DNA from: Caulobacter sp.
Lineage (GTDB): Bacteria; Pseudomonadota; Alphaproteobacteria; Caulobacterales; Caulobacteraceae
Direction: 5' to 3'
Length of the DNA stretch: 64,000 bases
Assembly (NCBI GenBank): GCA_030680355.1
Contig: JAUXVF010000027.1
Span: forward strand, 1-64,000
In this document: positions 35,429-55,873 of the stretch, in pieces
Position numbering within the stretch: position 1 is the first letter of the stretch
Layout of the letters: the number at the start of each line of letters is the position of its first letter
The notes under the pieces: generated by a model
What the model was told of the DNA's origin: nothing
The model's database searches: none
Seen by the model: the letters and a program-made list of their open reading frames with translations, nothing else
Translations under genes and position numbers: made by a program

Positions 35429-36922
35429 TCAGCCCCTCAAGGCGTCGATGTGGCGGGGCATGGTCTTGGCCGCCGCCGCGATCTCGTCCCGGACCCGGTC
35501 GAACTCCGCCGCGATCCGGTCGACATCATGCAGGTCCACCAACGGATCATAGGCCGCGGGCGATACCCCCTGGCCATGCATGACGGCCTGCCAGCTGGTC
35601 ACCGTGAACATCTCCTCGGCGGCCAGGGACAGCTTTCCGCGCGCCGCGAACAGCGCCATGCGCTGGGCCAGGCTGTCGGGAATGGCCATCTCCCGGGTTT
35701 GCCGCCACAGCGGCTCGTCCCGCTGGTTGGCGTGGTAGTGAAGGATGATGAAGTCGCGGATGCGCTCGAAATCAAGGGCGATCCGGGCGTTGTAGTCGTC
35801 GGCCAGCACCGGGTCCCACTGACGCCCCGGGAATGAAGCCAGGAACTTGAGCAGGCCGGCCTGGATCATGTGAATGCTGGTCGATTCCAGCGGCTCGAGA
35901 AAGCCGCTCGACAGACCCAGACCAAGCACATTTTTGTTCCAGGCCTTTCGGCGCCGACCGGTGACGAACCGCAGTTTGTTGGGCTCGGCCGTCGGGGCGG
36001 CGCCCAGACCCTCCCTCAGGGTGCGCTCGGCCTCGTCATCGGACAGGAAGGCGCTGGAATAGACGTAGCCGTTGCCGTCGCGATGCTGCAGCGGAATGCG
36101 CCAGACCCAGCCGCCGGCCTGGGCGGTGGAGCGGGTGAAGGGGTCGGGGTCGCCCTGCCGCTCACACGGCATGGCCATGGCCCGGTCGCAGGGCAGCCAG
36201 TGCGACCAGTCCTCGTAGCCGGTCTCCAGGGCCTGTTCGAGCAGCACGGCGCGAAAGCCCGAGCAGTCGATGAAGAAGTCCCCCTCCACGCGGCGATCAT
36301 CGTCCAGGACCAGCGCCTCGACGAACCCGTCCTCGCTGCGCAGATCGACCTTCTCGACCTTGCCTTCCAGTCGCTTGACGCCCAGCCGCTCGGCATAGCC
36401 GCGCAGGTAGCGCGCATAGAGCGAAGCATCGAAGTGAAAGGCCGACCCGAAGGTGGACAGCGGCGAGTTGGGATCCTGGCTCTGGCGGCCGAACCGGCCC
36501 GTGCGGGCGGCCACGGCGCAGAGGGAGTAGTCCTCCAGCGGGCCCGCCCGGCCCAGCGCCGCCAGCTTGAGCCAGTACTGATGGAAATAGCCTGGGTCGG
36601 GCGTGACGCCATAGACGCCGAACGGGTGAAAGTACCGCTCGCCGGGCCGGGTCCATCCGTTGAACTCGATCCCCAGTTTGTAGGTGGCGCGGGTTTCCCG
36701 AACGAAGGCCGATTCATCCAGGCCCAGCGTGTTGTTGAAAATGCGGATAGGCGGGATGGTCGCCTCGCCCACTCCGACCGTGCCGATCTCCGCCGACTCG
36801 ACCAGGGTGATGTCGCAACGCCCCGCCAGGGCGCGCGAGAACAGGGCCGCGGCCATCCAGCCGGCCGTGCCGCCGCCCAGGATGACGATTGACCGTGGAA
36901 GATTGTCGCCGACGATTTCCAT
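35429..36922 (-). CDS. Flavin-dependent tryptophan-halogenase-like protein
   Basis: A 497-residue flavoprotein of the tryptophan halogenase family. FAD motif SIVILGGGTAGWMAAALFSRAL lies at the N-terminus, followed by GVGEATIPP. The family's catalytic Lys is conserved in TYKLGIEF (about residue 80), and the WxWxIP motif is present as GGWVWRIPLQH (about residue 270). FLEPLESTSIHMIQAG is the second signature. All this makes flavin-dependent chemistry likely. In Caulobacterales and Xanthomonadales such genes commonly stand beside carbohydrate TonB-dependent receptors and are not part of indole biosynthesis, so halogenation of tryptophan is not assured. The next gene upstream is such a receptor, 138 bases away with a terminator-like hairpin between. 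ATG 36922 is preferred to a GTG 15 bases upstream. Confidence 0.86.
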   Translation of the reverse strand: MEIVGDNLPRSIVILGGGTAGWMAAALFSRALAGRCDITLVESAEIGTVGVGEATIPPIRIFNNTLGLDESAFVRETRATYKLGIEFNGWTRPGERYFHPFGVYGVTPDPGYFHQYWLKLAALGRAGPLEDYSLCAVAARTGRFGRQSQDPNSPLSTFGSAFHFDASLYARYLRGYAERLGVKRLEGKVEKVDLRSEDGFVEALVLDDDRRVEGDFFIDCSGFRAVLLEQALETGYEDWSHWLPCDRAMAMPCERQGDPDPFTRSTAQAGGWVWRIPLQHRDGNGYVYSSAFLSDDEAERTLREGLGAAPTAEPNKLRFVTGRRRKAWNKNVLGLGLSSGFLEPLESTSIHMIQAGLLKFLASFPGRQWDPVLADDYNARIALDFERIRDFIILHYHANQRDEPLWRQTREMAIPDSLAQRMALFAARGKLSLAAEEMFTVTSWQAVMHGQGVSPAAYDPLVDLHDVDRIAAEFDRVRDEIAAAAKTMPRHIDALRG

Positions 36923-36980
36923 GACCGACTGGTCCACCCTTTTTGTCCCGCCCGCGCGACGCGCCGGCCAAAACGCAAGT

Positions 36981-37012
36981 CCGGGGCCGCCTCGGGAAAG
37001 AGGCGGCCCCGG
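36981..37012 (-). terminator. Probable Rho-independent terminator after the TonB-dependent receptor
   Basis: A perfect 13-base-pair GC-rich stem (36981-36993 with 37000-37012) around a six-base loop GGGAAA. On the minus strand it is followed by ACTTGCGTTTTGG, a weak T-rich tail. It lies 49 bases downstream of the receptor stop codon and 59 bases before the halogenase-like gene, so it should limit read-through between them. Confidence 0.75.
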
Positions 37013-37060
37013 TCAAGCGTGGACGATAGGCGACAGGGGAGTGTCTGTCGCCCGCGCCAA

Positions 37061-40006
37061 CTACATACCGAAGCGGTAGCGCAGCCCCAGCAGGAACCGG
37101 CGGTCGCCCGACAGGTAGCGGAAGGGCAGGTTCTCGAACTGCAGGTAGGCGCTCGAGGCCTCTTCGGTCAGGTTGATCCCTTCGAAGGTCACCTTCAGCG
37201 CCGGGGTCACGCTGTAGGCGACCTGGCCGTCGAGTTGACCATAAGCCGCCTGCCAGATGCCCAGCGTGTGGGTGTCGGCGCCCGAGCCGAAGCCGAAGTT
37301 GCCGAGATAGGCCTTGTCGCGCCAGGCATAGGACAGCCGGGCTTCGAAGCCGTTGTTCTCGTAGTAGCCCTGCAGATTGTAGGCCGTCTTGGAGACGCCC
37401 GGGATCGGCAGGCTGGAGTCGAAGTCGTTCGAGAACGGCGATTCAGAGTCGGAGTAGGTGTAGTTGACGTTGAAGCCGAGGCCGTTCTCGAAGGCGTATT
37501 GAGCCGCCAGTTCGATGCCCTTGACCGAGCCGCCCTCACCATTGACCGGCGAGGTGTAGGTGCCGACCGTGGAGCCCGCCACCGAACCATCGGCCACGCT
37601 GCGCGAAACCGTGTCGGTCTGGATGAAGGAGTCGACGCTCTTGTAGAAGAACGAGGCCGAGATCAGGCCCTGGCGGCCGAAGTAGCGCTCGTACGCCAGG
37701 TCGAACTGATTGGCCCGGTAGGGGTCGAGCTCGGCGTTGCCGCCATTGCCGTTGGTGAAGATGAAGCGGTTGAAGTTCGGATCGCCCACGGTGGTGTTGC
37801 GGGTGAAATCGAAGCTGGAGCCCTTCCCGAGGTCGAACAGATTCTGACGCGCCACGACCCGGGCCGCGGAGGCGCGAACCTTGTCGGTGTCGTTGACCTC
37901 GAAGACCGCGTTCACGCTGGGCAGGACGTCGGTGTATTCACGGACGGTCGATTGCTGCACCGGATTGGCGAGCACGCCGTTCCAGCTGTCGGTGCCATAG
38001 TACCAGGCGTCCGAAATCGGCGTCGAGCTGGCGTTGATCGTCAGTTCGGTCTTCACCACGCGGGCGCCGCCATTCAGATGGAAGCGGTCATCCCTGCGCC
38101 CGACATCGACCATGAAATAGGCGCTGCTCGTCTTTTCCTCGACCGAGAAGCTTTCCAGAGGGTCCTCGTAGTAGGCGAACGGCGTGGTGGGATAGAGACC
38201 CTGGATCCAGGAAACCGGGTTCTTCATCTGGCCACGATTCTGGACCAGGGCCGTGATCCCGCCGATGGTCACAGTCTCGAACCGGCCCGGGTTGGACGCC
38301 GCCGTTTCATAGGGCGTGATCACCGCCGGCGAGTCTCCGAACCTGCCTGTGCAGGGGGGGTGACCCGGCGTCAGAAGCGGCAGCTCGCAGGACTTGAGGC
38401 CGATGGCGCCGTCCTGGAAATAGCCCAGCGGCGTCCAGTCCCCGACGCCGAGCGCATGGGCGTCAAGTTCACCCTTGCCGGAATAGTCGGCCAGGTAGCG
38501 GCCATAGGACGTATCGACCGTGCGTTTGGCGAGACGACCGCCGAAGCTGAGCGTCAGGCCGGCCTCCTCGCCGAACCCGGGCTCATACTTGAAATCGGCG
38601 CGGATGGACTGGTTCTCGGTCTCGGTGCTTTCGCCGAACACCCAATGCGACTTGGCGAAGACGTTTGAGGGCGTTGTGAACTGGGCGGGATTGACCGGCG
38701 TGAACGTCGGGTTGTCGCCATTCACGTAGTCAAACGAGAAGGTCGTCGGTGCGGACGGGTTGGGGGTCAGCCCCAGGGCCGTGCCGTTGCGAACCCCGTA
38801 CTGCGTGTAGCGGACGTCATTGTTGCCGCTGGTGCTGTCGTAGCTCGCCTTGGAGTAGGCGGCCCGGAAACTGGCGGTCAGGGGACCGCCATTGTCCCAG
38901 TTGGCGGCCAGTTGGTAGTTGTCGGTGACGGCCTCGGCGTTCTGAACAAACGAGATCGCCTCCGCCGACAACGCTGTCACCCGGCCCGTTTGCAGAATGC
39001 CGTTGCTGTCGGTGGTGAAGGAGCCGGTCTGGAGAGTCGCGCTCTCGAGGTTGAACGGGAACTTGATCGAGGCTTCCGACGTCAGAATCTTGAGATCGGA
39101 ATGGAACCAGTCCGCCGTGAACTGGAGGGAGTCGGTCACCTGCAGGTCGGCGTTCAGCGACATGCCCAGCCGTTCACGCTCCTGATCGCGGTTGGTGGCG
39201 TACCGGTATTCCGGCGACCAGATATTGGCCGTGGAGGTCTGCGTCACGCCCGTGCCGACCGGGCGGTTCAGATAGGCCCAGGTGCCGCGGTTTTCACCGC
39301 CGAGCGCGTCAGTATGGATGAAGGTCTTGTCGTAGGAGACCGTTCCCAGCAACGCGAAGCGGTCGGAGAACTTGTATCCCAGGATCACCGACGCGGTCGG
39401 GTTCCAGTCTCCGTCGCCGCCGCGGTTGCCCCGCAGGACGCCCGAGAAGGTCAGGGTATCGGGCAGGGTGAGCGCGTTTCGGGTCTTCAGATTGACGATG
39501 CCGCCAAGGCCGCCTTCGAGAAGCGAAGCGTCCGGCGATTTGTAGACATCGACGGCGGCGATGAGTTCTGAGGGGACGCCTTCAAGCGAGCTGTCCTGCC
39601 GCGCGTTGCCCTCGCCCAGTCGGAAGATCTCCAGACCGCTGACGAAGATGTCGCCGTTCAGCACGGTGACATTCTGGTCGAGGCCGCGGATGCGGACCTT
39701 GGTGCCCTGCCCATTCTGGCGGTCGATCTGCACGCCTGGAAGGCGCTGCAGGGACTCGGTGATGTTCTGGTCCGGGAACTTGCCCATGTCTTCGGCAGTG
39801 ATCGACTCGATGATCAGGTTTGAGTCCTTCTTCACCGCCAGGGCGCTCGCAAGCGAGGCGCGGAAGCCGGTGATGATGACCTCCTCGACCTGGGTCGGCG
39901 CCGCGGCGGGCGCATCGGCCGCCCGAGCATGACCTGCCGTGATCATGGCCAGGGTCGATGTCGCTGTGAGCAGCGCGGCGCGGGATCGATTGAATTTCGT
40001 TTTCAT
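37061..40006 (-). CDS. TonB-dependent receptor, Xanthomonas/Caulobacter carbohydrate type
   Basis: A 981-residue outer-membrane receptor. A signal peptide (KFNRSRAALLTATSTLAMITAG, cut near HARAAD) is followed by a TonB-box-like VEEVIITGFRASLASAL, then the plug domain with SITAEDMGKFPDQNITESLQRLPGVQID and VRIRGLDQN. These phrases are diagnostic of the TonB_Xanth_Caul group that imports oligosaccharides. The remainder is the 22-strand barrel, ending LLGLRYRFGM, so a Met replaces the usual terminal Phe. The start follows AGGGGAATAG. A LacI-type operator overlaps its promoter (see 40189-40238). Substrate not identifiable; the GH2, GH3 and glucose genes nearby suggest a glucose- or glucosamine-containing glycan. 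Confidence 0.92.
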   Translation of the reverse strand: MKTKFNRSRAALLTATSTLAMITAGHARAADAPAAAPTQVEEVIITGFRASLASALAVKKDSNLIIESITAEDMGKFPDQNITESLQRLPGVQIDRQNGQGTKVRIRGLDQNVTVLNGDIFVSGLEIFRLGEGNARQDSSLEGVPSELIAAVDVYKSPDASLLEGGLGGIVNLKTRNALTLPDTLTFSGVLRGNRGGDGDWNPTASVILGYKFSDRFALLGTVSYDKTFIHTDALGGENRGTWAYLNRPVGTGVTQTSTANIWSPEYRYATNRDQERERLGMSLNADLQVTDSLQFTADWFHSDLKILTSEASIKFPFNLESATLQTGSFTTDSNGILQTGRVTALSAEAISFVQNAEAVTDNYQLAANWDNGGPLTASFRAAYSKASYDSTSGNNDVRYTQYGVRNGTALGLTPNPSAPTTFSFDYVNGDNPTFTPVNPAQFTTPSNVFAKSHWVFGESTETENQSIRADFKYEPGFGEEAGLTLSFGGRLAKRTVDTSYGRYLADYSGKGELDAHALGVGDWTPLGYFQDGAIGLKSCELPLLTPGHPPCTGRFGDSPAVITPYETAASNPGRFETVTIGGITALVQNRGQMKNPVSWIQGLYPTTPFAYYEDPLESFSVEEKTSSAYFMVDVGRRDDRFHLNGGARVVKTELTINASSTPISDAWYYGTDSWNGVLANPVQQSTVREYTDVLPSVNAVFEVNDTDKVRASAARVVARQNLFDLGKGSSFDFTRNTTVGDPNFNRFIFTNGNGGNAELDPYRANQFDLAYERYFGRQGLISASFFYKSVDSFIQTDTVSRSVADGSVAGSTVGTYTSPVNGEGGSVKGIELAAQYAFENGLGFNVNYTYSDSESPFSNDFDSSLPIPGVSKTAYNLQGYYENNGFEARLSYAWRDKAYLGNFGFGSGADTHTLGIWQAAYGQLDGQVAYSVTPALKVTFEGINLTEEASSAYLQFENLPFRYLSGDRRFLLGLRYRFGM

Positions 40007-40026
40007 GGCCCTATTCCCCTCTACTT

Positions 40027-40036
40027 GCGTTAACGC
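40027..40036. promoter_or_regulatory. Palindrome GCGTTAACGC in the receptor leader
   Basis: A perfect ten-base palindrome lies 21 bases upstream of the receptor start codon, beyond its promoter and operator. It resembles the core of other LacI/PurR-type sites and could be a second operator or a roadblock site. Only the symmetry is observed. Confidence 0.3.
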
Positions 40037-40188
40037 GCAGTGCCTCATGCTCGGAGAGCTCTCTCCAAGTCGGGACCACGCTGTTCTCGGGATGCCTGCG
40101 GCATCCTCCCCAAAAATTCAGTCCGGCGTCTTGGCGGCCGGTGACTCGGATCGTCGTAACCCGGTGACTTTTGCTGTCGTTGGAAATT

Positions 40189-40202
40189 AGACAGCGCTGT
40201 CA
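40189..40202. promoter_or_regulatory. LacI-type operator A: AGACAGCGCTGTCA
   Basis: One of four copies in this window of the palindrome TGACAGCGCTGTCA (here with one mismatch in the first base). It is placed directly after the -10 box of the receptor promoter on the minus strand, that is, over the expected transcription start, where bound repressor would block initiation. It is also 85 bases upstream of the divergent ROK regulator. Confidence 0.75.
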
Positions 40203-40286: not shown

Positions 40287-41537
40287 GTGACGTGGGTTTG
40301 GAGACGTTTGGATTTGGCTGGCGGTACAGCACCAGGACACAAGGCGCGGCGACGCGCATCCGGCACTGACCTGTCGGGCACCAACCTGGAACGCGCGGGT
40401 GATCACAATCAGCGAGTAACCCTGCAAGCGATCCGGGCCCGGACTTCGATAACGAGGGCTGAGCTCGTCGAGATCACGGGCCTGACAGGGCCGGCCATCG
40501 CCAACATCACGCGGCGGTTGCTTGAGGACGGCCTGATCCTTGAGGCTGGCCGCCTGAGAGGCGGCCGCGGTCAACCGGCTATGACCCTGACCGCCAATCC
40601 CGAGGGCTGCTTCTCGGTCGGGATCAATGTCGACCGCGATCACATCACCGTCGTCCTGGTGGATTTCGCCGGCCAGGTGCGAGGGCGCGCCACGCGGGAA
40701 ATCCGCTTTCCTCTTCCAGAGGACGTGTCCCGATTCTGGCATGACGCGGGCGCGAGGCTTCTGGCCGAGAACAATCTGACGGAAGCTCAGTTGCTCGGCA
40801 TCGGCATCGCGCTTCCCGATGACTTCGGAAAGGTCGACATCCCCGGCCGCCCGGCCAGTTTCGACGCCTGGAACACGACAGATCCGGCCAGCCTCTTCGC
40901 GCGGGCCGGCGGACCGCCCGTGTTCCTGGAAAATGACGCCGCCGCCGCCGCCCTGGGCGAGTTGCAGTACGGCCACGGCATGAGCAAGCCGAGCTTCTTC
41001 TATATTCTGATCGCCGCTGGGCTGGGCGGCGGCCTGATCATCGACGGCGAGCACTTTCGCGGCGCGGATGGACGCAGCGGCGAGATCGGCTTTCTCCCTA
41101 TCCAGTCTGACAGAACCAGCGCCACATCATTGCAGGCGGTGGTGTCCCTTTCCGCCCTCTACGCCCATATCGGTGCCGGCGGGTTCTCGGTGAGCGAGCC
41201 GGACGGCCTTCTCGGCCTGCCGCCCGAGGCCCAGGCGCGGATCGACGAATGGATTGACCTAGCCGCCGACGTGCTGACCGCCCCCGTCGTCAACATCAGC
41301 TGCGTGGTCAATCCCGAGGCCGTCTACATCGGCGGACGATTGCCGGCGGCGATCGTCGAACGCCTGACCCAGTCCCTCAATACCCGGCTGGCCGCCATCA
41401 CCGGCGTGCCCGCGATCGCAAAGGTGTCGCGGGCGGCGACATCGGCGGACGCCCCGGCGGTCGGCGCCGCCATCCTGCCGGTTATCGACCGGCTGCTGCC
41501 CTCCCGCGCCACCCTGCGCAAGACCTCCCGCCCCTGA
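40287..41537 (+). CDS. ROK-family transcriptional regulator
   Basis: A protein of about 416 residues. An N-terminal winged helix-turn-helix (TLQAIRARTSITRAELVEITGLTGPAIANITRRLLEDGLI, residues about 43-82) is followed by a ROK sugar-kinase-like domain with VGINVDRDHITVVLVDFAGQ, LENDAAAAALGEL and GLGGGLIIDG. The cysteine-rich zinc motif (CxCGxxGCxE) usual in ROK proteins is absent: after GEIGFLP the sequence goes straight into polar residues. Divergent from the TonB-dependent receptor and convergent with the GH2 gene (eleven bases apart), it probably senses a sugar and controls the receptor or hydrolases. The start is uncertain: GTG 40287 gives the longest form, and TTG 40314 has GGAGA at a better distance. 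Confidence 0.86.
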   Translation: MTWVWRRLDLAGGTAPGHKARRRASGTDLSGTNLERAGDHNQRVTLQAIRARTSITRAELVEITGLTGPAIANITRRLLEDGLILEAGRLRGGRGQPAMTLTANPEGCFSVGINVDRDHITVVLVDFAGQVRGRATREIRFPLPEDVSRFWHDAGARLLAENNLTEAQLLGIGIALPDDFGKVDIPGRPASFDAWNTTDPASLFARAGGPPVFLENDAAAAALGELQYGHGMSKPSFFYILIAAGLGGGLIIDGEHFRGADGRSGEIGFLPIQSDRTSATSLQAVVSLSALYAHIGAGGFSVSEPDGLLGLPPEAQARIDEWIDLAADVLTAPVVNISCVVNPEAVYIGGRLPAAIVERLTQSLNTRLAAITGVPAIAKVSRAATSADAPAVGAAILPVIDRLLPSRATLRKTSRP

Positions 41538-41548: not shown

Positions 41549-44500
41549 CTAGCGGGCCCGGACCTTCGCCGGCTTGACGTTCCAGCCCCTCAAGGCGACT
41601 TCCGGCGGCCTGGCCGAGGCGGCAGTCGGATACCGAACCGCGATGGTCCGCGCCTCTCCGGGCAGCAGGGAGACGTAGTTGTCGCTGTAATAGGCCGGCA
41701 GGATGCGCCGTCCAACCGAGTCGACCAGGGTCATCTTGATGTTGAGGGCCGGCGCCGATCCGCGGTTCTCCAACACGACCGAGACCACCGTTTCGGCCCC
41801 GTCGCGTTCGCGGCTCGCGGAAATCTCGACAGGTTGGGGCGCCAGATCGGCCAACTTGCGGCCCTTCGCGGCGTCGGCGGTCAGCCAGTAGAGATTGTTC
41901 GACAACGCCTCGCCCTCCGCCGACGTCAGGTCGAGGCGCACGATCACCGTCCCCTCCGCGGCCAACGGCCCGTCCAGCGCCAGGGTCTCGCCCGGCGACA
42001 TGCTGTCGGCCGCAGCGGACAGGGTCTGGGCGGAGTCTGACAGGAGGCGACCATCGAGCGCGAGGACGCGAACCTGGACCTTGGCCCCTTCGATCGCGAC
42101 CGGCCCGTTGTTGATCAGGGCCAGGCGGTGGTCGGCCAGGTCCATCTGGATATGCACGGTCTCCGACGCCTTCTGGACGCCGTAGAAGGCGGCGTGGGTG
42201 TCATAGTCGTGGCTGAGGATCTGCCACATGGTGCTGGGCCAGGCCGGCTGGGTCATCCACAAAAGACGGCCCGAGGACTTCGTCCAGAGCTCGGCGTTCA
42301 TGCCCTCGAAGATCGCCCGGTAGGTGTCGTAGTTCATCAACTGCGCCTTGCGCTCGAAGTCCTCGAGGCTGGTTGGCGCGCCCAGGCGGGCGGTCATGGC
42401 GTCCATGAAGGACTGGGTCGCGCCGTTCCCGGTCGGGTGCCAGTCGTGGTAGGCCCAGACGTCGCTGATCGGCCAGCGGTCGGCGGCCGGCACCGCGGCC
42501 TCAAAGGCCTCCAGGGTCGGGAAGGACGGCGTCCCGACCTCGACCGAGAAGCCCTTGGCGTGGTCGGTGAAATAGCTCTCCGGTTCCCGGTAGTTGTACG
42601 GCCCGCTGTTCTGCAGGTTCACGCGGTTGGAGCTGCCAGTGTACCAGCGGGTGCCATCCAGATCATGGACAAGGGCCTCGAGCCCCTCGTTGAGGATCGG
42701 CTGGGGCACGCCCTCGTTGCGGCCGAACCACAGAACGATCGAGGGGTGGTTCCGGAAGCGTTTGATGACGTCGGCGGCGTTGGCCAGGAACAGCGGCACG
42801 TCCTGCGGTTCGAGCTGATAGTCCTGGGTCGAGGCCCAGAAGTCGTTCATCACCAGCAGTCCGTACTCATCGGCCAGGTCGAAGAACACCTCCTCTGTGT
42901 TCTGCCCGACCCAGTTGCGGATGGTGTTGAGGTTGGCGTCGCGGTGCAGGCGGAAGTAGGGCTCCAGCCGTTCGCGCTCGACCCGCTTGCGCCAGTCGTC
43001 GGTGCCCCAGTTGCCGCCCCGGGCGGCGATCCGCCGACCGTTCACCTTGATCACCAGGAAGGGCGACAGGCCCGTCTCAGGCACGTCCCGCACCGCCGGC
43101 GAAGTGTCGCCGACCGCCGTCAGCGAGGTCGCCCAGCCATCGGGAACCTTACGGAGGCCGTCGTGGCTGCCGTCGGTCACGTCCTGTCCCAGTTGCCGGG
43201 CCCTGGCGAAGTCGACCTCGACCCGGCGCAGATGACCCGACGGGTTCATCAGCGACAGTTCATAGGTGATCTGGCGCATGCCGAACCGAAGCTGGCGGCG
43301 GTCGGACGCCTGGCCGTCCACCGATGTGGTCAGGGTCAGGCCGTGCAGCGCCGGCTCGCCATAGCCATTGGGCCACCAGAGTCGCGGATCGCGCACGGAT
43401 AGGGCGGGAAACTCGGCGGGCGTGAACCGGACCTCGCCGACGCCTGGGGCGACAAGCACGGTCTTCTCGACCCGCACGTCGTCGAAGGCCGCGTCGACCG
43501 TGACCCGGGCGGGGCGGTCGCCAAGGTTTTCGATGGGAACAGTGATCTCCACGTCCGCCTGGCTGTTGTCGGCCCTGGGCAGGGTGGTGACCACCTGGGC
43601 GTCGCCGATACGGGCGTCGCCCGTCGCCAGCAGGGTCACGTCCTGCCAGAGACCGGTATTGCGGTCCCGCACACTGGGAATCCAGTCCCAGCCCTCGCTG
43701 GCGATGAAGGTCGGGCCGTCGAGGGCCATCATGCCGCCGTTCTCGCCGACTCCGGCGGTCAGCGATTCCTCGTGGGCGATGCCCGGATGCGGAGGCGGCG
43801 TGATCTTGACGGCAAGGACATTGGCGACCCCCGACTTGACCCGGCCGGTGACATCGAACTGGCCGCGGATGAAGGCGCCCTTGATGTCGCCCAGCCGCTC
43901 GCCGTTGAGCCAGACCTCGGCGGCGTAGTTGACGCCCTTGAAGGTCAGAAGCAGCCGCTTGCCGGCGGATTCGGCCGGCGCGTCGAAGGCGGCGCGATAC
44001 CAGTAGTCCTGTTTGTTCAGGCTCTCGGGAATGGCGGTGTTGTTGAGCCCGTAGTCCGGATCCGGATAGACGCCACGATCGACCAGGGTGGTCAGGACCG
44101 TTCCGGGAACGGTGGCCGCATACCAAGCGCCGGCGTCATAGTCCGGCCGCGATATCGCCGCGCCGGCGGCGTCGACCTTGGGCGCTTCCGCCAGAGCCCA
44201 GCGTTTGAGCGTCCAGAGGCCGGGCTGGTCCGCCACCAGGGCAGGACCGTCATACGGCGGCTTTGCGGTCGGCTTCGATGTCGGGACCTTGCTCCGCGGC
44301 AGGGTCCAGGGATCCTGGGGCGCGGTCTGACCGTACATCTGCCGCACCTGGACCGGCCAGGTCGGGCTGCCGGTGTCGAAGACGGTCAGGGCGTCATCGG
44401 GCCGCTTTCCGGCCAGCCGAGCCATCGCGTCCGCCGGTTCCGCGGCCCGCGAGACCCGGAAATCGGCCAGATAGCCGGCGAAAGGCGTGAAACCGGCGAC

Positions 44501-44995
44501 CTTGCGCGGGGCCAGTCTCAGCCGCGCCACGACCGCCACACTGGGCGACGCCGCCGCCGCCACGCGGACGCCATCGACGAACAGCTGCACGGTCCGGCCA
44601 TCGGAGACCGCCGCCAGCCGCCGCCAGACTCCCGGTCGCCAGTCAACGTCGGCGCGCAGCACCTCGCCGCCGTTCAGAACACCCATGCCGGTCGCGTCGA
44701 TGGCCAGGAAACGCCCGCCCTGCGACGGGTCGCCGAGGCCGGCGACCAGCGCCGTCCCGGCCGGTGTTTCAGTCGCACGGATCCAGGCCTGCAGCGTCCA
44801 GGCCTCACCGGCGGGCAGGACCGTTCCCGCCGGCAGTCCGGGCAGATCACGGGACAGTTCGTCGCCCCCCGCCGGGAAGACGACATTGAATGGCCCCACG
44901 GACTCTCTGGCCAGACCAGGCGACGCCGCGATCAGAGCCAGAGCGCAGGCCGCGAGCGACACGGCGCGGACGATGGAACGGACGAAGGTGATCAT
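41549..44995 (-). CDS. Exported GH2 glycoside hydrolase, exo-beta-glucosaminidase/beta-mannosidase type, with N-terminal LamG-like domain
   Basis: A 1148-residue exported enzyme. A signal peptide (AVSLAACALALIAASPGLA) precedes a concanavalin-like LamG part (about residues 35-205: AWTLQAWIRATETP, then GVWRRLAAVSDGRTVQLFVDGVRV). The GH2 sugar-binding domain follows (about 265-450, with VPGTVLTTLVDRGVYPDPDYGLNN and VNYAAEVWLNGERLG), then the Ig-like domain and the TIM barrel: GGNWGTDDWRKR, DANLNTIRNWVGQ, and the acid/base Glu in LWFGRNEGVPQP. A candidate nucleophile is the Glu in SVEVGTPSFPTLE. The PGTVLTTLVDRG and GRNEG pattern is close to CsxA-type exo-beta-D-glucosaminidases. At 1148 residues it is longer than typical family members, owing to the LamG part. 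The substrate is inferred, not shown. Confidence 0.87.
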   Translation of the reverse strand: MITFVRSIVRAVSLAACALALIAASPGLARESVGPFNVVFPAGGDELSRDLPGLPAGTVLPAGEAWTLQAWIRATETPAGTALVAGLGDPSQGGRFLAIDATGMGVLNGGEVLRADVDWRPGVWRRLAAVSDGRTVQLFVDGVRVAAAASPSVAVVARLRLAPRKVAGFTPFAGYLADFRVSRAAEPADAMARLAGKRPDDALTVFDTGSPTWPVQVRQMYGQTAPQDPWTLPRSKVPTSKPTAKPPYDGPALVADQPGLWTLKRWALAEAPKVDAAGAAISRPDYDAGAWYAATVPGTVLTTLVDRGVYPDPDYGLNNTAIPESLNKQDYWYRAAFDAPAESAGKRLLLTFKGVNYAAEVWLNGERLGDIKGAFIRGQFDVTGRVKSGVANVLAVKITPPPHPGIAHEESLTAGVGENGGMMALDGPTFIASEGWDWIPSVRDRNTGLWQDVTLLATGDARIGDAQVVTTLPRADNSQADVEITVPIENLGDRPARVTVDAAFDDVRVEKTVLVAPGVGEVRFTPAEFPALSVRDPRLWWPNGYGEPALHGLTLTTSVDGQASDRRQLRFGMRQITYELSLMNPSGHLRRVEVDFARARQLGQDVTDGSHDGLRKVPDGWATSLTAVGDTSPAVRDVPETGLSPFLVIKVNGRRIAARGGNWGTDDWRKRVERERLEPYFRLHRDANLNTIRNWVGQNTEEVFFDLADEYGLLVMNDFWASTQDYQLEPQDVPLFLANAADVIKRFRNHPSIVLWFGRNEGVPQPILNEGLEALVHDLDGTRWYTGSSNRVNLQNSGPYNYREPESYFTDHAKGFSVEVGTPSFPTLEAFEAAVPAADRWPISDVWAYHDWHPTGNGATQSFMDAMTARLGAPTSLEDFERKAQLMNYDTYRAIFEGMNAELWTKSSGRLLWMTQPAWPSTMWQILSHDYDTHAAFYGVQKASETVHIQMDLADHRLALINNGPVAIEGAKVQVRVLALDGRLLSDSAQTLSAAADSMSPGETLALDGPLAAEGTVIVRLDLTSAEGEALSNNLYWLTADAAKGRKLADLAPQPVEISASRERDGAETVVSVVLENRGSAPALNIKMTLVDSVGRRILPAYYSDNYVSLLPGEARTIAVRYPTAASARPPEVALRGWNVKPAKVRAR

Positions 44996-45065: not shown

Positions 45066-45989
45066 TCAGGCGGGTTCATGGGCGCTCCAGGCTGACTGGC
45101 CCCACAGGCGCGCGGCGCCGCGCACGCCCGAGGCGTCGCCCCAGCGCGCGGGAGCCAGCCGGGCCTTCCACCGGTCGGAGAAGACGTGCGGCGCGATCAG
45201 GCTCGGCAGGCGATCATAGAGTTCGGCGACATTCGACAGGCCCCCGCCAAACACGAAGACGTCCGGGTCAATGATGTCGCAGACCATGGCCAGACCTCTG
45301 GCGAGGCGGTCGAGATAGCGGTCAAGCGCCGCCGCCGCCGCCGGCTCTCCGACTCGCGCCGCGGCGATGATCTCTTCCCCCGTCAGCGTGAGTCCGGTCT
45401 GTTCGTGGAAGTCGCGGCGAAGACCGGATCCCGAAACCCAGGTTTCCAGACAGCCCTGCCGCCCGCACCAGCACGCCGGACCGGGATATTCGGCCGCGGT
45501 CGCCCAGGGCAATGGCAGATGACCCCATTCGCCGCCGACGCCATTGGCGCCTTCGACCAGACGGCCATCGACGACGACCCCGCCGCCGCAGCCCGTACCC
45601 AGGATCACGGCGAACGCCACCCGCGCGCCCACGGCGGCGCCATCGACCGCTTCTGACAGGGCCAGACAGTTGGCGTCATTGGCGACTCGCACCGGCCGTT
45701 GCAGAGCCTGGCCGAGGTCTTCCCGGAAAGAGCGCCCGTTCAGCCACACGGTGTTGGCGTTGCGGATGACCCCGGTGCTCGGTGAAACCGACCCCGGCAT
45801 GCCGACGCCGACGCTGCCCTTGCGGCCGGTCTGCGCCTCGATATCGGTGACCAATCCGCAGATCACGTCGATCATCGCCTCATAGGCGTCGGGCGTGCCT
45901 GTGCGTTGGCGAGCCACATAGCCGCCGCCAGCGTCGAGAGCGGCGGCCTCGATCTTCGTCCCGCCCAGATCAACTCCGATCTGGATCAT
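45066..45989 (-). CDS. ROK-family sugar kinase (fructokinase/N-acetylhexosamine kinase type)
   Basis: A 307-residue cytoplasmic kinase. The ATP-binding motif is IGVDLGGTKIEAAALD at the N-terminus; the substrate-binding block is ANDANCLALSEA; the glycine-rich GTGCGGGVVVDGRLVEGANGVGGEWGH contains the catalytic loop; and the zinc motif is complete in CWCGRQGCLETW. It phosphorylates a hexose or aminosugar. The frame continues upstream to 46178, but ATG 45989 gives the family N-terminus and follows GGCGGAG. It lies 70 bases beyond the GH2 gene start on the same strand and divergent from the MFS permease gene, and so likely acts on the sugar released by GH2. Confidence 0.9.
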   Translation of the reverse strand: MIQIGVDLGGTKIEAAALDAGGGYVARQRTGTPDAYEAMIDVICGLVTDIEAQTGRKGSVGVGMPGSVSPSTGVIRNANTVWLNGRSFREDLGQALQRPVRVANDANCLALSEAVDGAAVGARVAFAVILGTGCGGGVVVDGRLVEGANGVGGEWGHLPLPWATAAEYPGPACWCGRQGCLETWVSGSGLRRDFHEQTGLTLTGEEIIAAARVGEPAAAAALDRYLDRLARGLAMVCDIIDPDVFVFGGGLSNVAELYDRLPSLIAPHVFSDRWKARLAPARWGDASGVRGAARLWGQSAWSAHEPA

Positions 45990-46165
45990 CAGACGGCTCC
46001 GCCGCTCATACGCCCCGATCGGCTTTTCACTGGGTAATTCCCTCCGAAGGCGCCGGGCTCCATTGGCCCCGCGATTTATAAATTCAATTTGGGTTATTAT
46101 TGTTTGATGACGCGGTGTTGGCAACCGGGCAGAGTTTGAGGCCACGGCGCGCCCCTCGGGATTCC

Positions 46166-47704
46166 ATGTTCGCAGCACGAAGAAATGTCTGGCTCTTCTG
46201 GCTGGGAAGTCTGGTGGTGACCGTGGGCGTCGCCCTGCATTTGCCGATGTACTGGATGGGCCGGCACATGGGCTTCCATCTCGCCGGCATGGCCATGGAC
46301 TCCGGGATGATGTGGGGCATGGTCCTGATCCTCGTGGGTCTGGCCATGACCGCGATTGGCCTTCTGCCCACCGTCGCGACCGCCGACCGCCCGTTCATCA
46401 TCGTGGTTCCACCCGAGGACGCGCCGCTGAACGGGGCGCACTGGCTGACCTTGTTCGTGATGGCGATCGCCCTGGTGATCGACATCATGAAGCCCGCGAG
46501 CCTTGGCTTCGTCTCGCCGGGCATGCAGGCCGAGTATGGGCTGTCGGCGTCGGTGACGGCGATCCTGCCCTTCGCCGCCCTGGCGGGAACCGTCGCGGGC
46601 TCGTTCGCGTGGGGCTGGCTGGCGGACCGCTACGGCCGGCGAGCGTCCATCCTGTTGTCGTCGATCATGTTCGTCGGCACCTCCATCTGTGGTGCGATGC
46701 CCGATTTCTGGTGGAACGTCGGCATGTGCTTCCTGATGGGCGCGGCGGCGGGCGGCATGTTGCCGGTCGCCTATGCGCTGCTGGCCGAGATCATGCCGAC
46801 GCGGCACAGGGGCTGGTGTCTGGTTCTGGTCGGCGGCGTCGGTGCGGTGGGCGGTTATTTCGCGGCCAGCGCCCTGTCCGCCTGGCTGCAGCCCGACTGG
46901 AGCTGGCGAGTCCTCTGGTTTCTCAACCTTCCAACCGGTCTGATCCTGATCGGCCTCAGCCCGTTGATTCCGGAATCAGCCAGGTTTCTCGAACACATCG
47001 GGCGCGGCGACGAAGCCCGGGCCATGCTGGCTCGCTTTGGCGTGACCACGCATTGCTTGGCCGACCCGTTGACGGCCGGCGACGGCCCCGGCCCAGGCAT
47101 CCTCTCCCCGCTTGACCGCCGCCTTGGTCTGACCACGGCCCTGACCCTGGCCGCCGTGGCATGGGGACTGGTGAACTTCGGCCTGCTTCTCTGGCTACCC
47201 GGCGCTTTGGTCGCGGACGGCCGTAGCGTCGGCGCCGCCAGCGGTCTGATCGCCCGTTCCACTCTGATCGCGGCGCCGACCATTCTGCTCGTGGCCTGGC
47301 TCTACAGCGTCTGGAGCACACGCGGCGCGCTGGCATTGATGCTCGGGTTCACCCTTCTGGGCCTTGTCGGGCTTCTGTATGGTCACCCGGGCGAGGCTGG
47401 ATTGGGCGACCCGATCCTTCCGCTGGCGCTGCTGATCGTGGGCTCAAGTGGGGTGATTTCCATTCTTCTGCCTTACACCGCCGAGACCTATCCCCTGACC
47501 GTGCGGGGCCGGGCGACCGGCTGGATCGCGGGCTGCACCAAGGTCGGGGGCCTGCTCGCCCAGGGATTGGTGGTTCTGGGAGCAGCGCCGCCACTGGGGG
47601 TCGTCGCCGCAGGCATCGCCGCACCGATGGCGGTGGCGCTCATCCTGATCGTGAAATTCGGCAAGGAAACCCGGGGCCTCGATCTGAGGGACATCGGATC
47701 CTAG
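46166..47704 (+). CDS. MFS permease with extra Met/His-rich N-terminal hairpin
   Basis: About 512 residues. A standard twelve-helix major-facilitator fold occupies residues 115-512, with the typical DRYGRR loop after helix 2 (WGWLADRYGRRASILL) and the sugar-porter-like loop PESARFLEHIGRGDEARAML between halves. Ahead of it are two additional hydrophobic spans, separated by a loop rich in Met and His (MYWMGRHMGFHL followed by AGMAMDSGMMWGM). The ATG 46166 start has CGGG upstream; the longer frame from TTG 46100 has no ribosome-binding site. It is divergent from the ROK kinase gene across an AT-rich 176-base region. It is probably a sugar or organic-acid permease of this locus. The role of the Met-rich part is unknown; metal binding is possible. 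Confidence 0.84.
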   Translation: MFAARRNVWLFWLGSLVVTVGVALHLPMYWMGRHMGFHLAGMAMDSGMMWGMVLILVGLAMTAIGLLPTVATADRPFIIVVPPEDAPLNGAHWLTLFVMAIALVIDIMKPASLGFVSPGMQAEYGLSASVTAILPFAALAGTVAGSFAWGWLADRYGRRASILLSSIMFVGTSICGAMPDFWWNVGMCFLMGAAAGGMLPVAYALLAEIMPTRHRGWCLVLVGGVGAVGGYFAASALSAWLQPDWSWRVLWFLNLPTGLILIGLSPLIPESARFLEHIGRGDEARAMLARFGVTTHCLADPLTAGDGPGPGILSPLDRRLGLTTALTLAAVAWGLVNFGLLLWLPGALVADGRSVGAASGLIARSTLIAAPTILLVAWLYSVWSTRGALALMLGFTLLGLVGLLYGHPGEAGLGDPILPLALLIVGSSGVISILLPYTAETYPLTVRGRATGWIAGCTKVGGLLAQGLVVLGAAPPLGVVAAGIAAPMAVALILIVKFGKETRGLDLRDIGS

Positions 47705-47727: not shown

Positions 47728-48987
47728 TCAGTCCGCCCGGCGTATGCCGGCCACCATGACGGCGCCCGTGAGCGCGAAGATCGTGGACGCAGCGAAAATC
47801 CAGGACAGACGGCCGCCCGCGGTGGACATAATCGCCATGCCCAGAAGGGGCGCCGCGACCTGCGGCAGGGTGATGGCGAGATTCATCACCCCAAGGTCCC
47901 GGCCGGCGTTCTCCTGCCTCGGCAGGATCTGGGCGACCAGGGCGATATCCACCGTCGAATAGAGACCCAGTCCAGCGCCGAACAGGACCTGGGCGACCAG
48001 CGTCCCTGGCCATTGCGGCACGGAAACCAGCAACGCTGTACCCATCGCCATCAGCAGGCCGCCGACGATCACGAACGGTTTGCGGCGCTTCAAGCGGTCG
48101 GACAGCAGCCCGCCAGCGAAACCAACCGTCAGCGACGCGAGGGTGGACGCCACCAGCAGCCACCCCAGGATCACCTCGGTCCGCACGCCCGGAAAGCGGA
48201 CTCCGACGTCCGTGCCGTCCTCCAGAAAGAACAGCAGGTAGAGCATGTTGAGGGTGATGGTGACCTGCACGAACAGGCGCGACAGGAAGGCCATCCGGAA
48301 ATCCCGATCCGCCAGCGGGCCCAGCGACAGCGACCAGGCGGCGGCCGTGCGGGTCCGCGGCGGCGGCTCGCGCAGCCCGATCGCGAAGGGCAGGACGAGC
48401 GCCAGGATGGTCACCGACACGGCCAGAAACCGTGAGCCGGGCGCGATCAGCAAGACGCCGATGACAAGCGCCGTGAACAGGCTGGCGGCCGGATGTCCCA
48501 AGCCCATGAGGGCGGACACCAGACCCTTCTGGTGGTTCGGCACCCGGTCGGGCAGCAAGGCGTTCAGCGGGCTGAACATAATGTTCAGCGCGACCTGGAA
48601 GAACACCACGGCGGCCAGCAGCATGGCCGGCGTCGGCGCCCAGAAGATCAGGCCGTTGGCCAGGGCGGTGGCCAGCGCCCCGCCGATGATCCATGGCCGA
48701 CGGCGGCCCAGGCGGCCGCTGGTGGCATCGCTGAGATAACCCGCGGTGATGTTGCCCACCCCGGCCGCGACGGCGCCCCACAGGGCGATCTGACTGAGCA
48801 GCACCGCACGTCCCGCGGGGTCGAGGCTCTGGGCTTTCAGCGGCAAGAGAATGCTGAGCAGCGGCAGGAAGGCGATGAACGCGCCGACCTGGGCCACGGT
48901 ATAGCCGCTCATGAACCGGCGGCTGACCGGCGTTCCGGCGTCGACTGCCTCCACAGGTCGCTCCAGCCGACTCTCCAACCTGATCAT
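47728..48987 (-). CDS. MFS permease, SLC45/glycoside-cation symporter-like
   Basis: A 419-residue permease. Twelve spans, starting FMSGYTVAQVGAFIAFLPLLSILLP. The loop GNITAGYLSDATSGRLGRRRPWIIGG is the signature of the SLC45 and sucrose/maltose:proton symporter branch (and of GPH symporters); the repeat in the second half is GGLLSDRLKRRKPFVIVGG. Uptake of a disaccharide or glucoside is therefore likely. ATG 48987 is preferred to TTG 49029. It is the first gene downstream of the GH3 gene on the same strand (96 bases), which suggests import of the GH3 product or substrate, and is convergent with the MFS gene to its left. Confidence 0.85.
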   Translation of the reverse strand: MIRLESRLERPVEAVDAGTPVSRRFMSGYTVAQVGAFIAFLPLLSILLPLKAQSLDPAGRAVLLSQIALWGAVAAGVGNITAGYLSDATSGRLGRRRPWIIGGALATALANGLIFWAPTPAMLLAAVVFFQVALNIMFSPLNALLPDRVPNHQKGLVSALMGLGHPAASLFTALVIGVLLIAPGSRFLAVSVTILALVLPFAIGLREPPPRTRTAAAWSLSLGPLADRDFRMAFLSRLFVQVTITLNMLYLLFFLEDGTDVGVRFPGVRTEVILGWLLVASTLASLTVGFAGGLLSDRLKRRKPFVIVGGLLMAMGTALLVSVPQWPGTLVAQVLFGAGLGLYSTVDIALVAQILPRQENAGRDLGVMNLAITLPQVAAPLLGMAIMSTAGGRLSWIFAASTIFALTGAVMVAGIRRAD

Positions 48988-49082
48988 GAGCCGACTGTGC
49001 GGGCGACCGGCCTCGCTGTCAGCAGACAATTGCCGCGGTCCTCAAGCGGGCCGACCGCGCCGGTGTCGCGCGCCTGGCATGG

Positions 49083-51599
49083 TCAGGGCGCGGGGCAGAT
49101 CGCATCCCCCTCGTTGGAGGCCAGCCGGATCTCCGAGACCGACAGCGTCAGCGGCGCCGACGTGATCAGTCCGAAAGGCTCGGCCACCGCGCCGATATCG
49201 GCCCCGGCGTCCCGCATGCAGGACAGCCGTACTTTCAGAACCCGCCACTGGCCCAGAGGCGCGGCGTTCAGGATGTCGGTGATCGCCACCCGTCCCTGGC
49301 CGACCTGCAGCAACACCGGGCCCTGTGGACGGGCGTCAACCCGATAGCGGAAGCCAAGCGCCATTTCTCCGTTGGCCTGACGTCGAAGATCGACCGGCGC
49401 GGCGGCGATCTGGGGGTTGGCCTCCCCACCCCCGATGAAGATGAACTGCAGCCCGCTTTCCTGGGCGAGATCGTCGGTCGGGCGCACCGAGACGGCGCCA
49501 CGCGGGCTGGAGGCGACGCGCTCTGTTCCGGGGCGGTTCTGGCCGGCGGCGTCGTTCAGCATCAACGACCAGGGCGGCACCATGCGGCCATCGACGAAGT
49601 AGCGGTCGACGTTCGAAGTTTCGCCCAGAACGCCGCTGTCTTCCGACAGACCAGGCAGGTCGCCAGTCGATGCGTAGGTCAGGCCGTAGCCGTAGGCGAA
49701 CTGGGGATCATAGCCGCTCTGACCGATGTTCAACGGGCCCTGGACGGCGGTTTTCGGCCAGCTGAACGACAGTTTGCCCGAGAAATCGTGGCGCGGCCGG
49801 CCCTGATCGTCACCGATCAGGATGTCGGCGATCCCGCCGCCCTCGGTGCCTGGCAACCAGGCCGCCACGAAGGCGTCCGACGCGTTGATCTCCGGATTGG
49901 TCCACATCGGTCGCCCTGAGAGGAAAACCGACACCGTGGGCACGCCGGCGGCCCTAAGGCGCTTGAGGATCTGCAGCGCTGTCTGGTCAACGTAGTCGAG
50001 GGTCGGCACGTCGCCCTGGAACTCCGCGTAGGGTGTCTCGCCAAAGACCACGATAGCGACGTCGGGTTTGACCGTGAAGGTTCCGTCCGGGCTGAGGCTG
50101 ACGGTTCCGCCGCCGGCCTTGATCGCCGTGGCGAGTCCGCTCCAGATCGACTGACCGTTCGGGAAATCGGCGTTGCTGTTGCCGGTGCCCTGCCACGTCA
50201 GGGTCCAACCTCCGGCGGCTTGGCCGATGTCGTCGGCAGCCCCGGCGACCAGGACATTGGCGCTGGCTCGGATCGGCAGCACCGATCGGTTGTTCTTCAG
50301 AAGCACCAGCGACTTGCGCACCGCTTCCCTGGCCAGGGCGCGGTGTTCCGGAGAGCCCAGGGCTTCAAAACGGCCCTCGACCGGGCGGTCATCGAGGAAC
50401 AGGCCGGTCTTGACCTTGACCCGAAGAATGCGGCGAACCGCTTCATCCACACGGGTCATCGGAATTTCGCCTGATCGCACTTCCGCCAGGGTGTTGACGT
50501 AGAGCAGCTTCCAGCTGTCGGGCGCCATCAGCATGTCGATGCCGGCCTTGATGGCCAGCGGACAGTTCTCGTTGGTGCAGCCGGGCAGCTGACCGTGGGC
50601 GTTCCAGTCGGACACCACGAAGCCCTTGAAGCCGAGAGGGCCGCGAAGAACGTCGGTCAACAGGCTGGCGTTGCCGGAAATCTTCGCGCCGTTCCAGCTC
50701 GAGAAGCTGGCCATTACCGACAGAACGCCGGCGTCGATCGCGGCCGGATAGCCGCCGAGATGGATATCGATCAGCTCCTGTTCAGTGACCTTTGCATCGC
50801 CCTGATCCTCCCCCGCGGCCGTGCCGCCGTCGGCCAGGAAGTGTTTGGCGGAACCGGCGATATGGCCCGGCTTCAGGGTTGCGCCGGCCGTCAGGACGCC
50901 CTGCAGGCCGAGGGTCATCGGCGCCGCATAGGCGCGGGCGACCTCCGGATTTTCCGAGTAGCCCTCATAGGCCCTGCCCCAGCGATCGTCGCGCGGCAGC
51001 GCCAGCGTTGGGCCAAAGGTCCAGTCCGCGCCGGTCACGGCAACCTCGAGGGCCGTGGCCTCGCCGATGCGGCGGATCAGGTCGGGGTCCCTGGCGGCGC
51101 CAAGCCCGATGTTGTGTGGGAAGATGGTGGCGCCAACCACGTTGTTGTGCCCGTGCACGGCATCGATGCCGTAGATCAGCGGCACCCGGGCGCCCGGTCG
51201 CGCGGCGGCGGCGGCCCGGAACGCTCTGGCGAGGTCCAGCCACTGCTGGGGCGAGGCCCGTTCGTTGCCGCCCGGCGAGGAGTTGCCGCCGGCCAGAATC
51301 GATCCCAACGGATAGGCGGCCAGATCCTCGGGCTTGATCGAGGCGATATCGGCCTGAATGAGTTGGCCGACTTTTTCCTCGACGGTCATTCGGGCCATCA
51401 GCCCGGTCACGAACACCTCGGTTGCCGCGTCCGACATGGCGGCCGGACTCGCCGCCCGTGGCCAAAGATCCGGATGGGCGATCGCCGCCCCGGGTGCGGT
51501 CGATTGGGTGGGCGTGGCTGAAATCTGGGCGCAGGAGGCGCTTGCGAGACCCGCGGTGAGCGCCAGGGCGATCAGGGCAAGAGTCTTGGTCGGGCGCAT
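49083..51599 (-). CDS. Exported GH3 beta-glucosidase, ExoP-type
   Basis: An 838-residue exported hydrolase. A hydrophobic signal (LALIALALTAGLASASCAQ) comes first; a Cys at the cleavage site could mark a lipoprotein, but the lipobox is imperfect. The GH3 N-domain has MTVEEKVGQLIQADI, RVPLIYGIDAVHGHNNVVGATIFPHNIGLG, KHFLADGG and the nucleophile Asp in GFVVSDWNAHGQLPGC (near residue 335). The C-domain follows (RSVLPIRASANVLVAGAADDIG; GRPMWTNPEINASDAFVAAWLPGTEGGGIADILIG). The last 170 residues are the extra beta-domain seen in ExoP-like marine glucan glucohydrolases. It should release glucose from beta-1,3/1,4-glucans or cellodextrins in the periplasm or at the surface. Its promoter holds LacI operator B. 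Confidence 0.92.
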   Translation of the reverse strand: MRPTKTLALIALALTAGLASASCAQISATPTQSTAPGAAIAHPDLWPRAASPAAMSDAATEVFVTGLMARMTVEEKVGQLIQADIASIKPEDLAAYPLGSILAGGNSSPGGNERASPQQWLDLARAFRAAAAARPGARVPLIYGIDAVHGHNNVVGATIFPHNIGLGAARDPDLIRRIGEATALEVAVTGADWTFGPTLALPRDDRWGRAYEGYSENPEVARAYAAPMTLGLQGVLTAGATLKPGHIAGSAKHFLADGGTAAGEDQGDAKVTEQELIDIHLGGYPAAIDAGVLSVMASFSSWNGAKISGNASLLTDVLRGPLGFKGFVVSDWNAHGQLPGCTNENCPLAIKAGIDMLMAPDSWKLLYVNTLAEVRSGEIPMTRVDEAVRRILRVKVKTGLFLDDRPVEGRFEALGSPEHRALAREAVRKSLVLLKNNRSVLPIRASANVLVAGAADDIGQAAGGWTLTWQGTGNSNADFPNGQSIWSGLATAIKAGGGTVSLSPDGTFTVKPDVAIVVFGETPYAEFQGDVPTLDYVDQTALQILKRLRAAGVPTVSVFLSGRPMWTNPEINASDAFVAAWLPGTEGGGIADILIGDDQGRPRHDFSGKLSFSWPKTAVQGPLNIGQSGYDPQFAYGYGLTYASTGDLPGLSEDSGVLGETSNVDRYFVDGRMVPPWSLMLNDAAGQNRPGTERVASSPRGAVSVRPTDDLAQESGLQFIFIGGGEANPQIAAAPVDLRRQANGEMALGFRYRVDARPQGPVLLQVGQGRVAITDILNAAPLGQWRVLKVRLSCMRDAGADIGAVAEPFGLITSAPLTLSVSEIRLASNEGDAICPAP

Positions 51600-51832: not shown

Positions 51833-51862
51833 ATGTAACCTCATTTGTGACAGCGCTGTCAA
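51833..51862 (-). promoter_or_regulatory. Probable promoter of the GH3 gene
   Basis: On the minus strand a perfect TTGACA (-35, 51862-51857) is followed after 18 bases by TTACAT (-10, 51838-51833). The -35 hexamer is half of operator B, so repressor and RNA polymerase would compete for the same bases. The leader to the GH3 start codon is about 225 bases. Confidence 0.5.
51848..51861. promoter_or_regulatory. LacI-type operator B: TGACAGCGCTGTCA
   Basis: A perfect 14-base palindrome, extended by GT on the left and AC on the right (GTTGACAGCGCTGTCACAAA when read on the minus strand). It lies between the divergent GH3 and MFS genes and can control both. It is identical to operator D in front of zwf. 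The remainder of the 377-base gap (51600-51976) holds only leader sequence and no further gene. Confidence 0.8.
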
Positions 51863-55836: not shown

Positions 55837-55873
55837 ATTTCCGTTTTCAGGCTCTGACGGGGGGCGCGGCGGC

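Follow-up and report, generated by a model that had tools for sequence, protein, structure and literature searches.

What does a flavin-dependent halogenase act on when its gene lies directly behind that of a carbohydrate receptor? The question is raised by a locus of Caulobacter sp. (GenBank assembly GCA_030680355.1, contig JAUXVF010000027.1), in which a TonB-dependent receptor gene is followed, on the same strand and 123 nt downstream, by a halogenase gene. The first 64,000 nt of the contig were analysed and are referred to as the window. An earlier description of this sequence (the original prediction) had recognized the pair and placed it under a sugar operator. The enzyme belongs to a known family, and the interesting part is its partnership with the receptor: in three proteobacterial classes and for many sugars, BrvH and many of its relatives are linked to TonB-dependent receptors for carbohydrates, which makes the substrate question testable. 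We tentatively favour a bulky indole- or phenol-type target that is connected with the receptor and might be its polypeptide chain prior to export.

The window encodes an intact halogenase of the BrvH/Xcc4156 type

The halogenase open reading frame (ORF; Table 1) matches PF04820 with an E-value of 6e-190 (632 bits) and is the sole PF04820 match in its own genome. It starts with GTG, with an ATG at codon 6, and a signal peptide was not apparent in the protein, the Rossmann motif GGGTAGW (GxGxxG) being reached already at residues 21-27. The other halogenase motifs are all present as well, namely K87 in YKLGIEF, H104 in front of PFG, WVWRIP at residues 277-282 and E351 in PLEST, so that the lysine and WxWxIP motifs of the original prediction proved intact. 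In the 193 halogenase ORFs that were left from 252 after removal of repeat copies and short matches, the lysine is found in 183, the glutamate in 184 and both residues in 181. An AlphaFold model (pLDDT 90.1, pTM 0.89) matched 9luq of Pseudoalteromonas sp. L11 (Z 56.1), BrvH (6frl, Z 54.5) and Xcc4156 (6y1w, Z 53.7) over 482-485 residues with 46-48% identity. The gene is thus intact and codes for a member of the BrvH/Xcc4156 type of flavin-dependent halogenases, whose motifs are best read as those of a catalytically competent, cytosolic enzyme. PF04820 was found in 179 of 299 family genomes, a figure that overstates halogenases and was not used as a halogenase count: the profile also responds in E. 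coli and archaea, weak E-values (about 1e-4) were included and five candidates were scored per genome.

The original prediction had called for a comparison with true tryptophan halogenases and had named halogenation of free tryptophan as the result that would overturn it. In tryptophan halogenases of groups A and B the Trp4 motif (Y/F-YHG...YS in the PyrH type) holds the tryptophan backbone (PMC8269204). In the window enzyme YYHGFETYS of PyrH is aligned to AEEMFTVTS, and the Trp4 motif is absent. Free tryptophan was reported not to be halogenated by BrvH or Xcc4156, which brominate indole and its derivatives (PMC5945002, PMC7336383). Because the motif is absent and neither relative shows free-tryptophan activity, free tryptophan is an unlikely substrate of the window halogenase. 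The proposed refutation is weak, given that the closest relatives are themselves inactive on the free amino acid.

The pairing recurs and follows the receptor subfamily

The receptor scored 571 bits against TIGR01782 (cut-off 310), in agreement with the predicted carbohydrate receptor, and is one of four receptors above this cut-off in its genome. A start at 40006 (MKTKF), which would bear a signal, is more likely than the listed one. The C-terminal part of another TonB-dependent receptor, a weak TIGR01782 match, lies at the right window edge (62943-63866).

Loci were collected by similarity to the window halogenase, and 80 of the 591 found were named. By a strict count the halogenase is directly adjacent to a receptor in 58 of them and within 6 kb in seven more (65/80); in one the receptor lies farther away, in three the contig breaks off at the halogenase, and for 11 the available sequence contains no receptor. 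A laxer threshold (E up to 0.01) gave 61/80 adjacent, some of them weak, and the strict set was preferred. Judged by one Pfam-scanned representative of each type, the 58 adjacent receptors comprise 44 of the window type, eight of a second, Plug-bearing type and six Oar-like ones. The expected recurrence in Caulobacterales was observed (10/25 named loci adjacent), while in Xanthomonadales (Lysobacterales) it held for the pairing as such (4/8, all with an Oar-like barrel) and failed for the receptor type of the window (0/8). The pairing is also more widespread than predicted, being found in Burkholderiales (13/13), Sphingomonadales (10/12), Maricaulales (4/4) and Alteromonadales (2/2). Presumably, halogenase annotations also lie beside the Caulobacter maltose receptor.

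Within single genomes, a TIGR01782 receptor is found no more than 3.5 kb away for 8/9 halogenases of G035 and for 6/8 of G318 (about 0.06 and 0.03, respectively, expected per gene by chance), whereby tandem copies are not independent and two weak fragment matches of G318 were excluded (8/10 used). As to orientation, in 56 of the 85 pairs both genes run in the same direction and the halogenase comes second, 23 pairs are divergent, five are convergent, and in one the halogenase is upstream, so that 79/85 are receptor-first co-directional or divergent. For the receptors, 87 paired and 29 unpaired sequences were compared (five of uncertain class were excluded), and 115 of the 116 passed the length filter for tree building. 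The pairing follows the receptor subfamily: the paired label changed five times on this tree compared to 26.0 times when shuffled (0/500 as low), in a contrast that is biased by sampling because paired receptors were gathered through their halogenases. Two large, nearly pure paired groups were obtained, one from Alpha- and Betaproteobacteria and one from Alpha- and Gammaproteobacteria. Halogenase and receptor similarity were correlated (Mantel 0.42, with 1000 shuffles reaching at most 0.15).

The published relatives share this arrangement. In a genome with 100% identity over 309 typed BrvH residues, a receptor, BrvH and a second halogenase stand in a row; at locus L259 the receptor (9421-12624), which is like that of the window, and BrvH (7820-9385) are separated by 35 nt. 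All five BrvH-type loci fetched, from 76 matching genomes, consist of a receptor followed by two halogenases. The word TonB does not occur in the main texts of the BrvH paper, the Xcc4156 paper and the mSystems survey, and papers retrieved with 'tryptophan halogenase' and 'TonB' do not treat the pairing in their titles and abstract openings. In the open-licence literature searched, the partnership was not found to be treated; it may be described elsewhere.

The sugar enzymes change while the receptor stays

With labels for carbohydrate-active enzymes and partners taken from a single member of each BLAST cluster that was scanned with Pfam, 35/80 loci are of the starch/sucrose type (GH13, GH97, GH68 or glucoamylase), 10/80 of the xylan type and none of both. 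The sugar enzymes thus change between loci and the receptor is the constant partner. Because the paired receptors are for widely differing sugars, the enzyme might be in the service of the receptor and not of a particular sugar. The original prediction had pointed to phenolic or indolic aglycones of glucosides, and halogenation of these or of aromatic decorations on incoming plant glycosides would suit the glycoside hydrolases (GH3 and GH2) and the glucose-type regulon of the window, as well as those relatives that stand in xylan loci, xylan being known to carry feruloyl groups. However, starch and sucrose loci need carry no aromatics, which is circumstantial and no disproof. As the enzyme set varies in this way, aglycones are unlikely as a general substrate, and we consider this explanation decidedly improbable.

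Twelve of the 193 homologues lack the catalytic lysine and/or glutamate (L042:8505-9983, L053:8517-10016, L103:6982-8496, L214:6641-8191, L218:8366-9796 and seven more), and 11 of these stand in tandem arrays beside intact copies; on a FastTree tree they have one origin, with long branches. Such a homologue is possibly a dead partner subunit. Their retention beside active copies argues for a non-catalytic role within the family, and the window protein itself might not halogenate in vivo and might instead be a flavin monooxygenase, a source of hypohalous acid (HOX) or a receptor-biogenesis factor. Freshwater habitats can also be poor in bromide. Against this, both residues are kept in the window protein as in nearly all homologues, and the K83A variant of BrvH was reported to be inactive in vitro (PMC5945002), which leaves this explanation quite improbable.

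A hairpin in the gap and no dedicated peptide gene

The gap between receptor and halogenase contains a G+C-rich hairpin and a weak T tail behind it (gap fold z -4.4). Of 51 co-directional gaps of relatives, 34 contain a stem of at least 9 pairs, with a mean of 8.3 compared to 1.7 in mononucleotide shuffles. The hairpin would act as a partial terminator or processing stem, which suggests that less halogenase than receptor is made. A sigma-70 scan did not find a promoter, and an Rfam match was not found within 34300-41700.

None of the 51 receptor-halogenase gaps contains an ORF of at least 40 amino acids that might encode a dedicated peptide substrate. A precursor like those of ribosomally synthesized and post-translationally modified peptides (RiPPs) was considered and dropped, as a complete ORF of 25-39 amino acids was present in just 5/51 gaps.

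A substrate tied to the receptor

BrvH and Xcc4156 have been described as having open sites and as possible peptide halogenases, and a peptide or larger substrate was suggested by their authors (PMC5945002, PMC7336383). The native substrate was stated to be unknown in 2020 (PMC7336383), and in this respect the original prediction stands. A free indole- or phenol-type metabolite that the cell produces or encounters while growing on carbohydrates, be it a signal, a defence compound or a siderophore-like factor, with the receptor linked by shared regulation alone, would agree with the bromination of free indole and derivatives by the two relatives, with a single halogenase run serving loci of very different sugars and with the 11/80 loci without a nearby receptor. 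However, no biosynthetic partner recurs: among 91 short partner ORFs scanned with Pfam (of 101 listed), the commonest were DUF6445 and 2-oxoglutarate (2OG)-Fe(II) oxygenases, with six each. Moreover, the link goes with the subfamily of the receptor and with gene orientation and not with a single pathway. A free metabolite is a possible, yet rather doubtful, substrate.

We tentatively infer a macromolecular substrate, with the receptor as the leading candidate, because the receptor is the constant partner, the gap holds no dedicated peptide gene and the receptor CciT with its partner CciO (see below) provides a precedent. In the proposed sequence, a single sugar-induced transcription unit would give rise to receptor and halogenase, the latter at a lower level. 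A general flavin reductase would supply FADH2, which with O2 and halide (bromide being preferred in relatives) would yield HOX. K87, helped by E351, would deliver HOX to an aromatic ring at the open, unlidded site. The substrate would be associated with the receptor and not with the sugar; if it is the receptor polypeptide, it would be modified in the cytosol prior to export, tuning the binding loops. The acceptor candidates to look at first in the window receptor are W538, W614 and W909. W538 is present in 37/39 rows (95%) of the receptor group of the window compared to 7% of unpaired receptors, and W909 in 35/39 rows compared to 17%.

Several observations weigh against a receptor substrate. 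A diagnostic acceptor tryptophan was not found among the 87 paired compared to the 29 unpaired receptors, the discriminating columns reflecting subfamilies; W614, the only tryptophan conserved in more than 60% of the paired receptors, occurs in 78% of paired and 52% of unpaired receptors, and tryptophan content is similar (1.32% and 1.24%, p 0.17). The subfamily tryptophans W538 and W909 may simply stack on the sugar. Modification in the cytosol requires a receptor that is modified and yet exportable. Best matches between genomes were congruent in 235/372 cases (171 expected), a modest excess, and co-inheritance within an operon alone would yield the correlation between halogenase and receptor similarity. 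To this are added the sampling bias of the tree contrast, the low adjacency among Caulobacterales, the loci without a receptor and the branch without catalytic residues, given which not every member of the family need be an enzyme.

If the receptor is indeed halogenated, this would be a case of enzymatic halogenation occurring natively on an outer-membrane protein, and the receptor link would guide the choice of assay substrates in halogenase biocatalysis.

Co-encoded putative oxygenases

A Cupin_8, PF13759 or DUF6445 gene is also present in 19/80 loci. DUF6445 (PF20043), whose function is unknown in Pfam, has the signature HxD...H...R, which is invariant among six sequences. A DUF6445 model (pLDDT 78.6) gave middling matches to OGFOD1 (Z 8.5; 3.4 A over 152 residues) and PiuC (Z 6.9), and Tpa1 was also matched; a PDB sequence search with the DUF6445 alignment returned one chance match (E 0.35). 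From its signature and model, DUF6445 looks like a 2OG-Fe(II) oxygenase. A broader proposal is that TonB-dependent receptors for sugars undergo halogenation of aromatic residues in the cytosol, ahead of export, with each receptor subfamily co-inheriting its halogenases, and that in some loci these receptors are also hydroxylated by the co-encoded PF13759, Cupin_8 and DUF6445 oxygenases. We regard this as unlikely. Directly behind the halogenase, loci of the Burkholderiales type carry a small lipoprotein-like ORF, for which the representative scanned gave no Pfam match.

Operator, regulon and neighbouring genes

The sugar operator that had been predicted in front of the receptor was recovered as a palindrome, and further copies were located by pattern search (Table 1). 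In the window, 15 matches to TGACAGCGCTGTC with up to two mismatches were counted compared to 1.97 expected (0/100 shuffles had as many). Searched genome-wide with at most one mismatch, the pattern gave 14 strand matches and the reversed control three, and a single palindromic site lies outside the window (G000:C9:165194-165207). The receptor gene is preceded, at a distance of 141-192 nt, by a one-mismatch operator in three of the four nearest relatives (L037, L221 and L043, not L225). The operator is common to the receptor-halogenase pair, GH3, two major facilitator superfamily (MFS) genes and the Entner-Doudoroff cluster. The LacI-family repressor encoded among these genes likely reads it, and expression of receptor and halogenase would then be LacI-controlled and sugar-induced. 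The divergent ROK/NagC-like regulator is a possible second controller.

Among the window ORFs scanned, which were not all of them, no natural-product genes were found, as originally predicted. On the same strand, 93 nt beyond the halogenase, follow the S-formylglutathione hydrolase gene fghA (TIGR02821) and formate dehydrogenase-like ORFs read from sequence (28391-35335). A tie of the halogenase to this formaldehyde/formate operon was dropped, as in the nearest relative, L037, the adjoining ORF there encodes an adenosine deaminase on the opposite strand.

Table 1. Features of the receptor-halogenase locus, its surroundings and selected loci of relatives
Feature	Position	Strand	Basis
Flavin-dependent halogenase, 502 amino acids, BrvH/Xcc4156 type	35429..36937	-	PF04820; best solved relatives 9luq/6frl/6y1w; motifs; AlphaFold model
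Codon of catalytic K87	36677..36679	-	YKLGIEF
Codon of catalytic E351	35885..35887	-	PLEST
Hairpin of 13 pairs in receptor-halogenase gap	36981..37012	-	gap fold
TonB-dependent receptor, TonB-Xanth-Caul family	37061..40048	-	TIGR01782, PF00593, PF07715
LacI-type operator AGACAGCGCTGTCA upstream of receptor-halogenase	40189..40202	.	palindrome; ends at position 40202
Divergent ROK/NagC-like regulator	40287..41537	+	PF00480; NagC model 65 bits, below cut-off
GH2 glycosidase with LamG-like domain and exo-glucosaminidase Ig fold	41549..44995	-	Pfam
ROK sugar kinase, fructokinase/mannokinase-like	45066..46178	-	profile match below equivalog cut-off
MFS transporter	46100..47704	+	profile match
MFS transporter	47728..49029	-	profile match
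GH3 beta-glucosidase with ExoP domain	49083..51599	-	profile match
Second operator copy, perfect TGACAGCGCTGTCA, between GH3 and divergent transporter-like ORF	51848..51861	.	pattern search
MFS-type sugar transporter	51977..53269	+	read from sequence
LacI-family repressor	53286..54329	-	PF00356, PF13377
MFS-type sugar transporter	54443..55837	-	read from sequence; listed start overlaps operator, true start probably later
Third operator copy TGATAGCGCTGTCA, one mismatch, before another transporter	55823..55836	.	pattern search
Entner-Doudoroff cluster eda-glk-edd-zwf	55874..60774	-	read from sequence
Fourth operator copy, perfect TGACAGCGCTGTCA, upstream of zwf	60776..60789	.	pattern search
DUF6445 genes of relatives	L061:11476-12147, L050:11476-12150, L080:2567-3310, L078:12011-12868, L059:12082-12825, L097:12020-12826		
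Small lipoprotein-like ORFs of relatives	L059:11517-12047, L078:11519-11977, L087:11422-11979, L089:11451-11984, L097:11513-11992		

Comparison with known systems

With BrvH and Xcc4156 (group C) the window enzyme shares the lysine, the glutamate, WxWxIP, GxGxxG and short lid regions, and it aligns gap-free with BrvH through both of the latter. BrvH also lies directly behind a TonB-dependent receptor, but in a tandem pair, whereas the window halogenase is a single copy. Bromination of indole but not of free tryptophan is a property of the BrvH and Xcc enzymes, to which the window enzyme is likened by sequence and fold. The free-tryptophan halogenases PyrH, PrnA and RebH have the fold (Z 41-53) and the catalytic residues in common with it; their Trp4 motif and long lid (PMC8269204) are both missing, and the window enzyme stands outside any biosynthetic cluster. 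MibH (5uao), the tryptophan halogenase of a lanthipeptide, is more distant (Z 40.1, 31% identity). It shares the open site, a likeness noted for BrvH (PMC5945002), but belongs to a RiPP cluster with its own precursor peptide.

Carbohydrate utilization loci containing TonB-dependent receptors (CUT loci) bring together receptor, carbohydrate-active enzymes, inner-membrane transporter and regulator (PMC1790865), and all of these are found in the window. Induction by sugar belongs to the CUT loci, while the window has a predicted operator; the halogenase is an additional part, and neither 'halogen' nor 'tryptophan' occurs in the main text describing these loci.

A precedent for the pair itself is CciT-CciO of Caulobacter, related to PiuA-PiuC, in which the iron receptor CciT strictly requires the cytoplasmic 2OG/Fe(II) dioxygenase CciO (PMC11870441). 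In both cases a receptor gene adjoins, and is co-regulated with, that of a cytoplasmic oxidative enzyme of unknown substrate, and in the window type the two are likewise adjacent and co-conserved. The systems differ in that a dioxygenase and iron are replaced by a flavin halogenase and sugar. The models of the CciT-CciO authors invoke a transported ligand or an inhibitor, not modification of the receptor (PMC11870441). Dependence of the receptor on the enzyme is a property of CciT, while the window pair is known from its genes. If the halogenases do act on the receptors, they would join CciO as cytoplasmic partners needed by TonB-dependent receptors.

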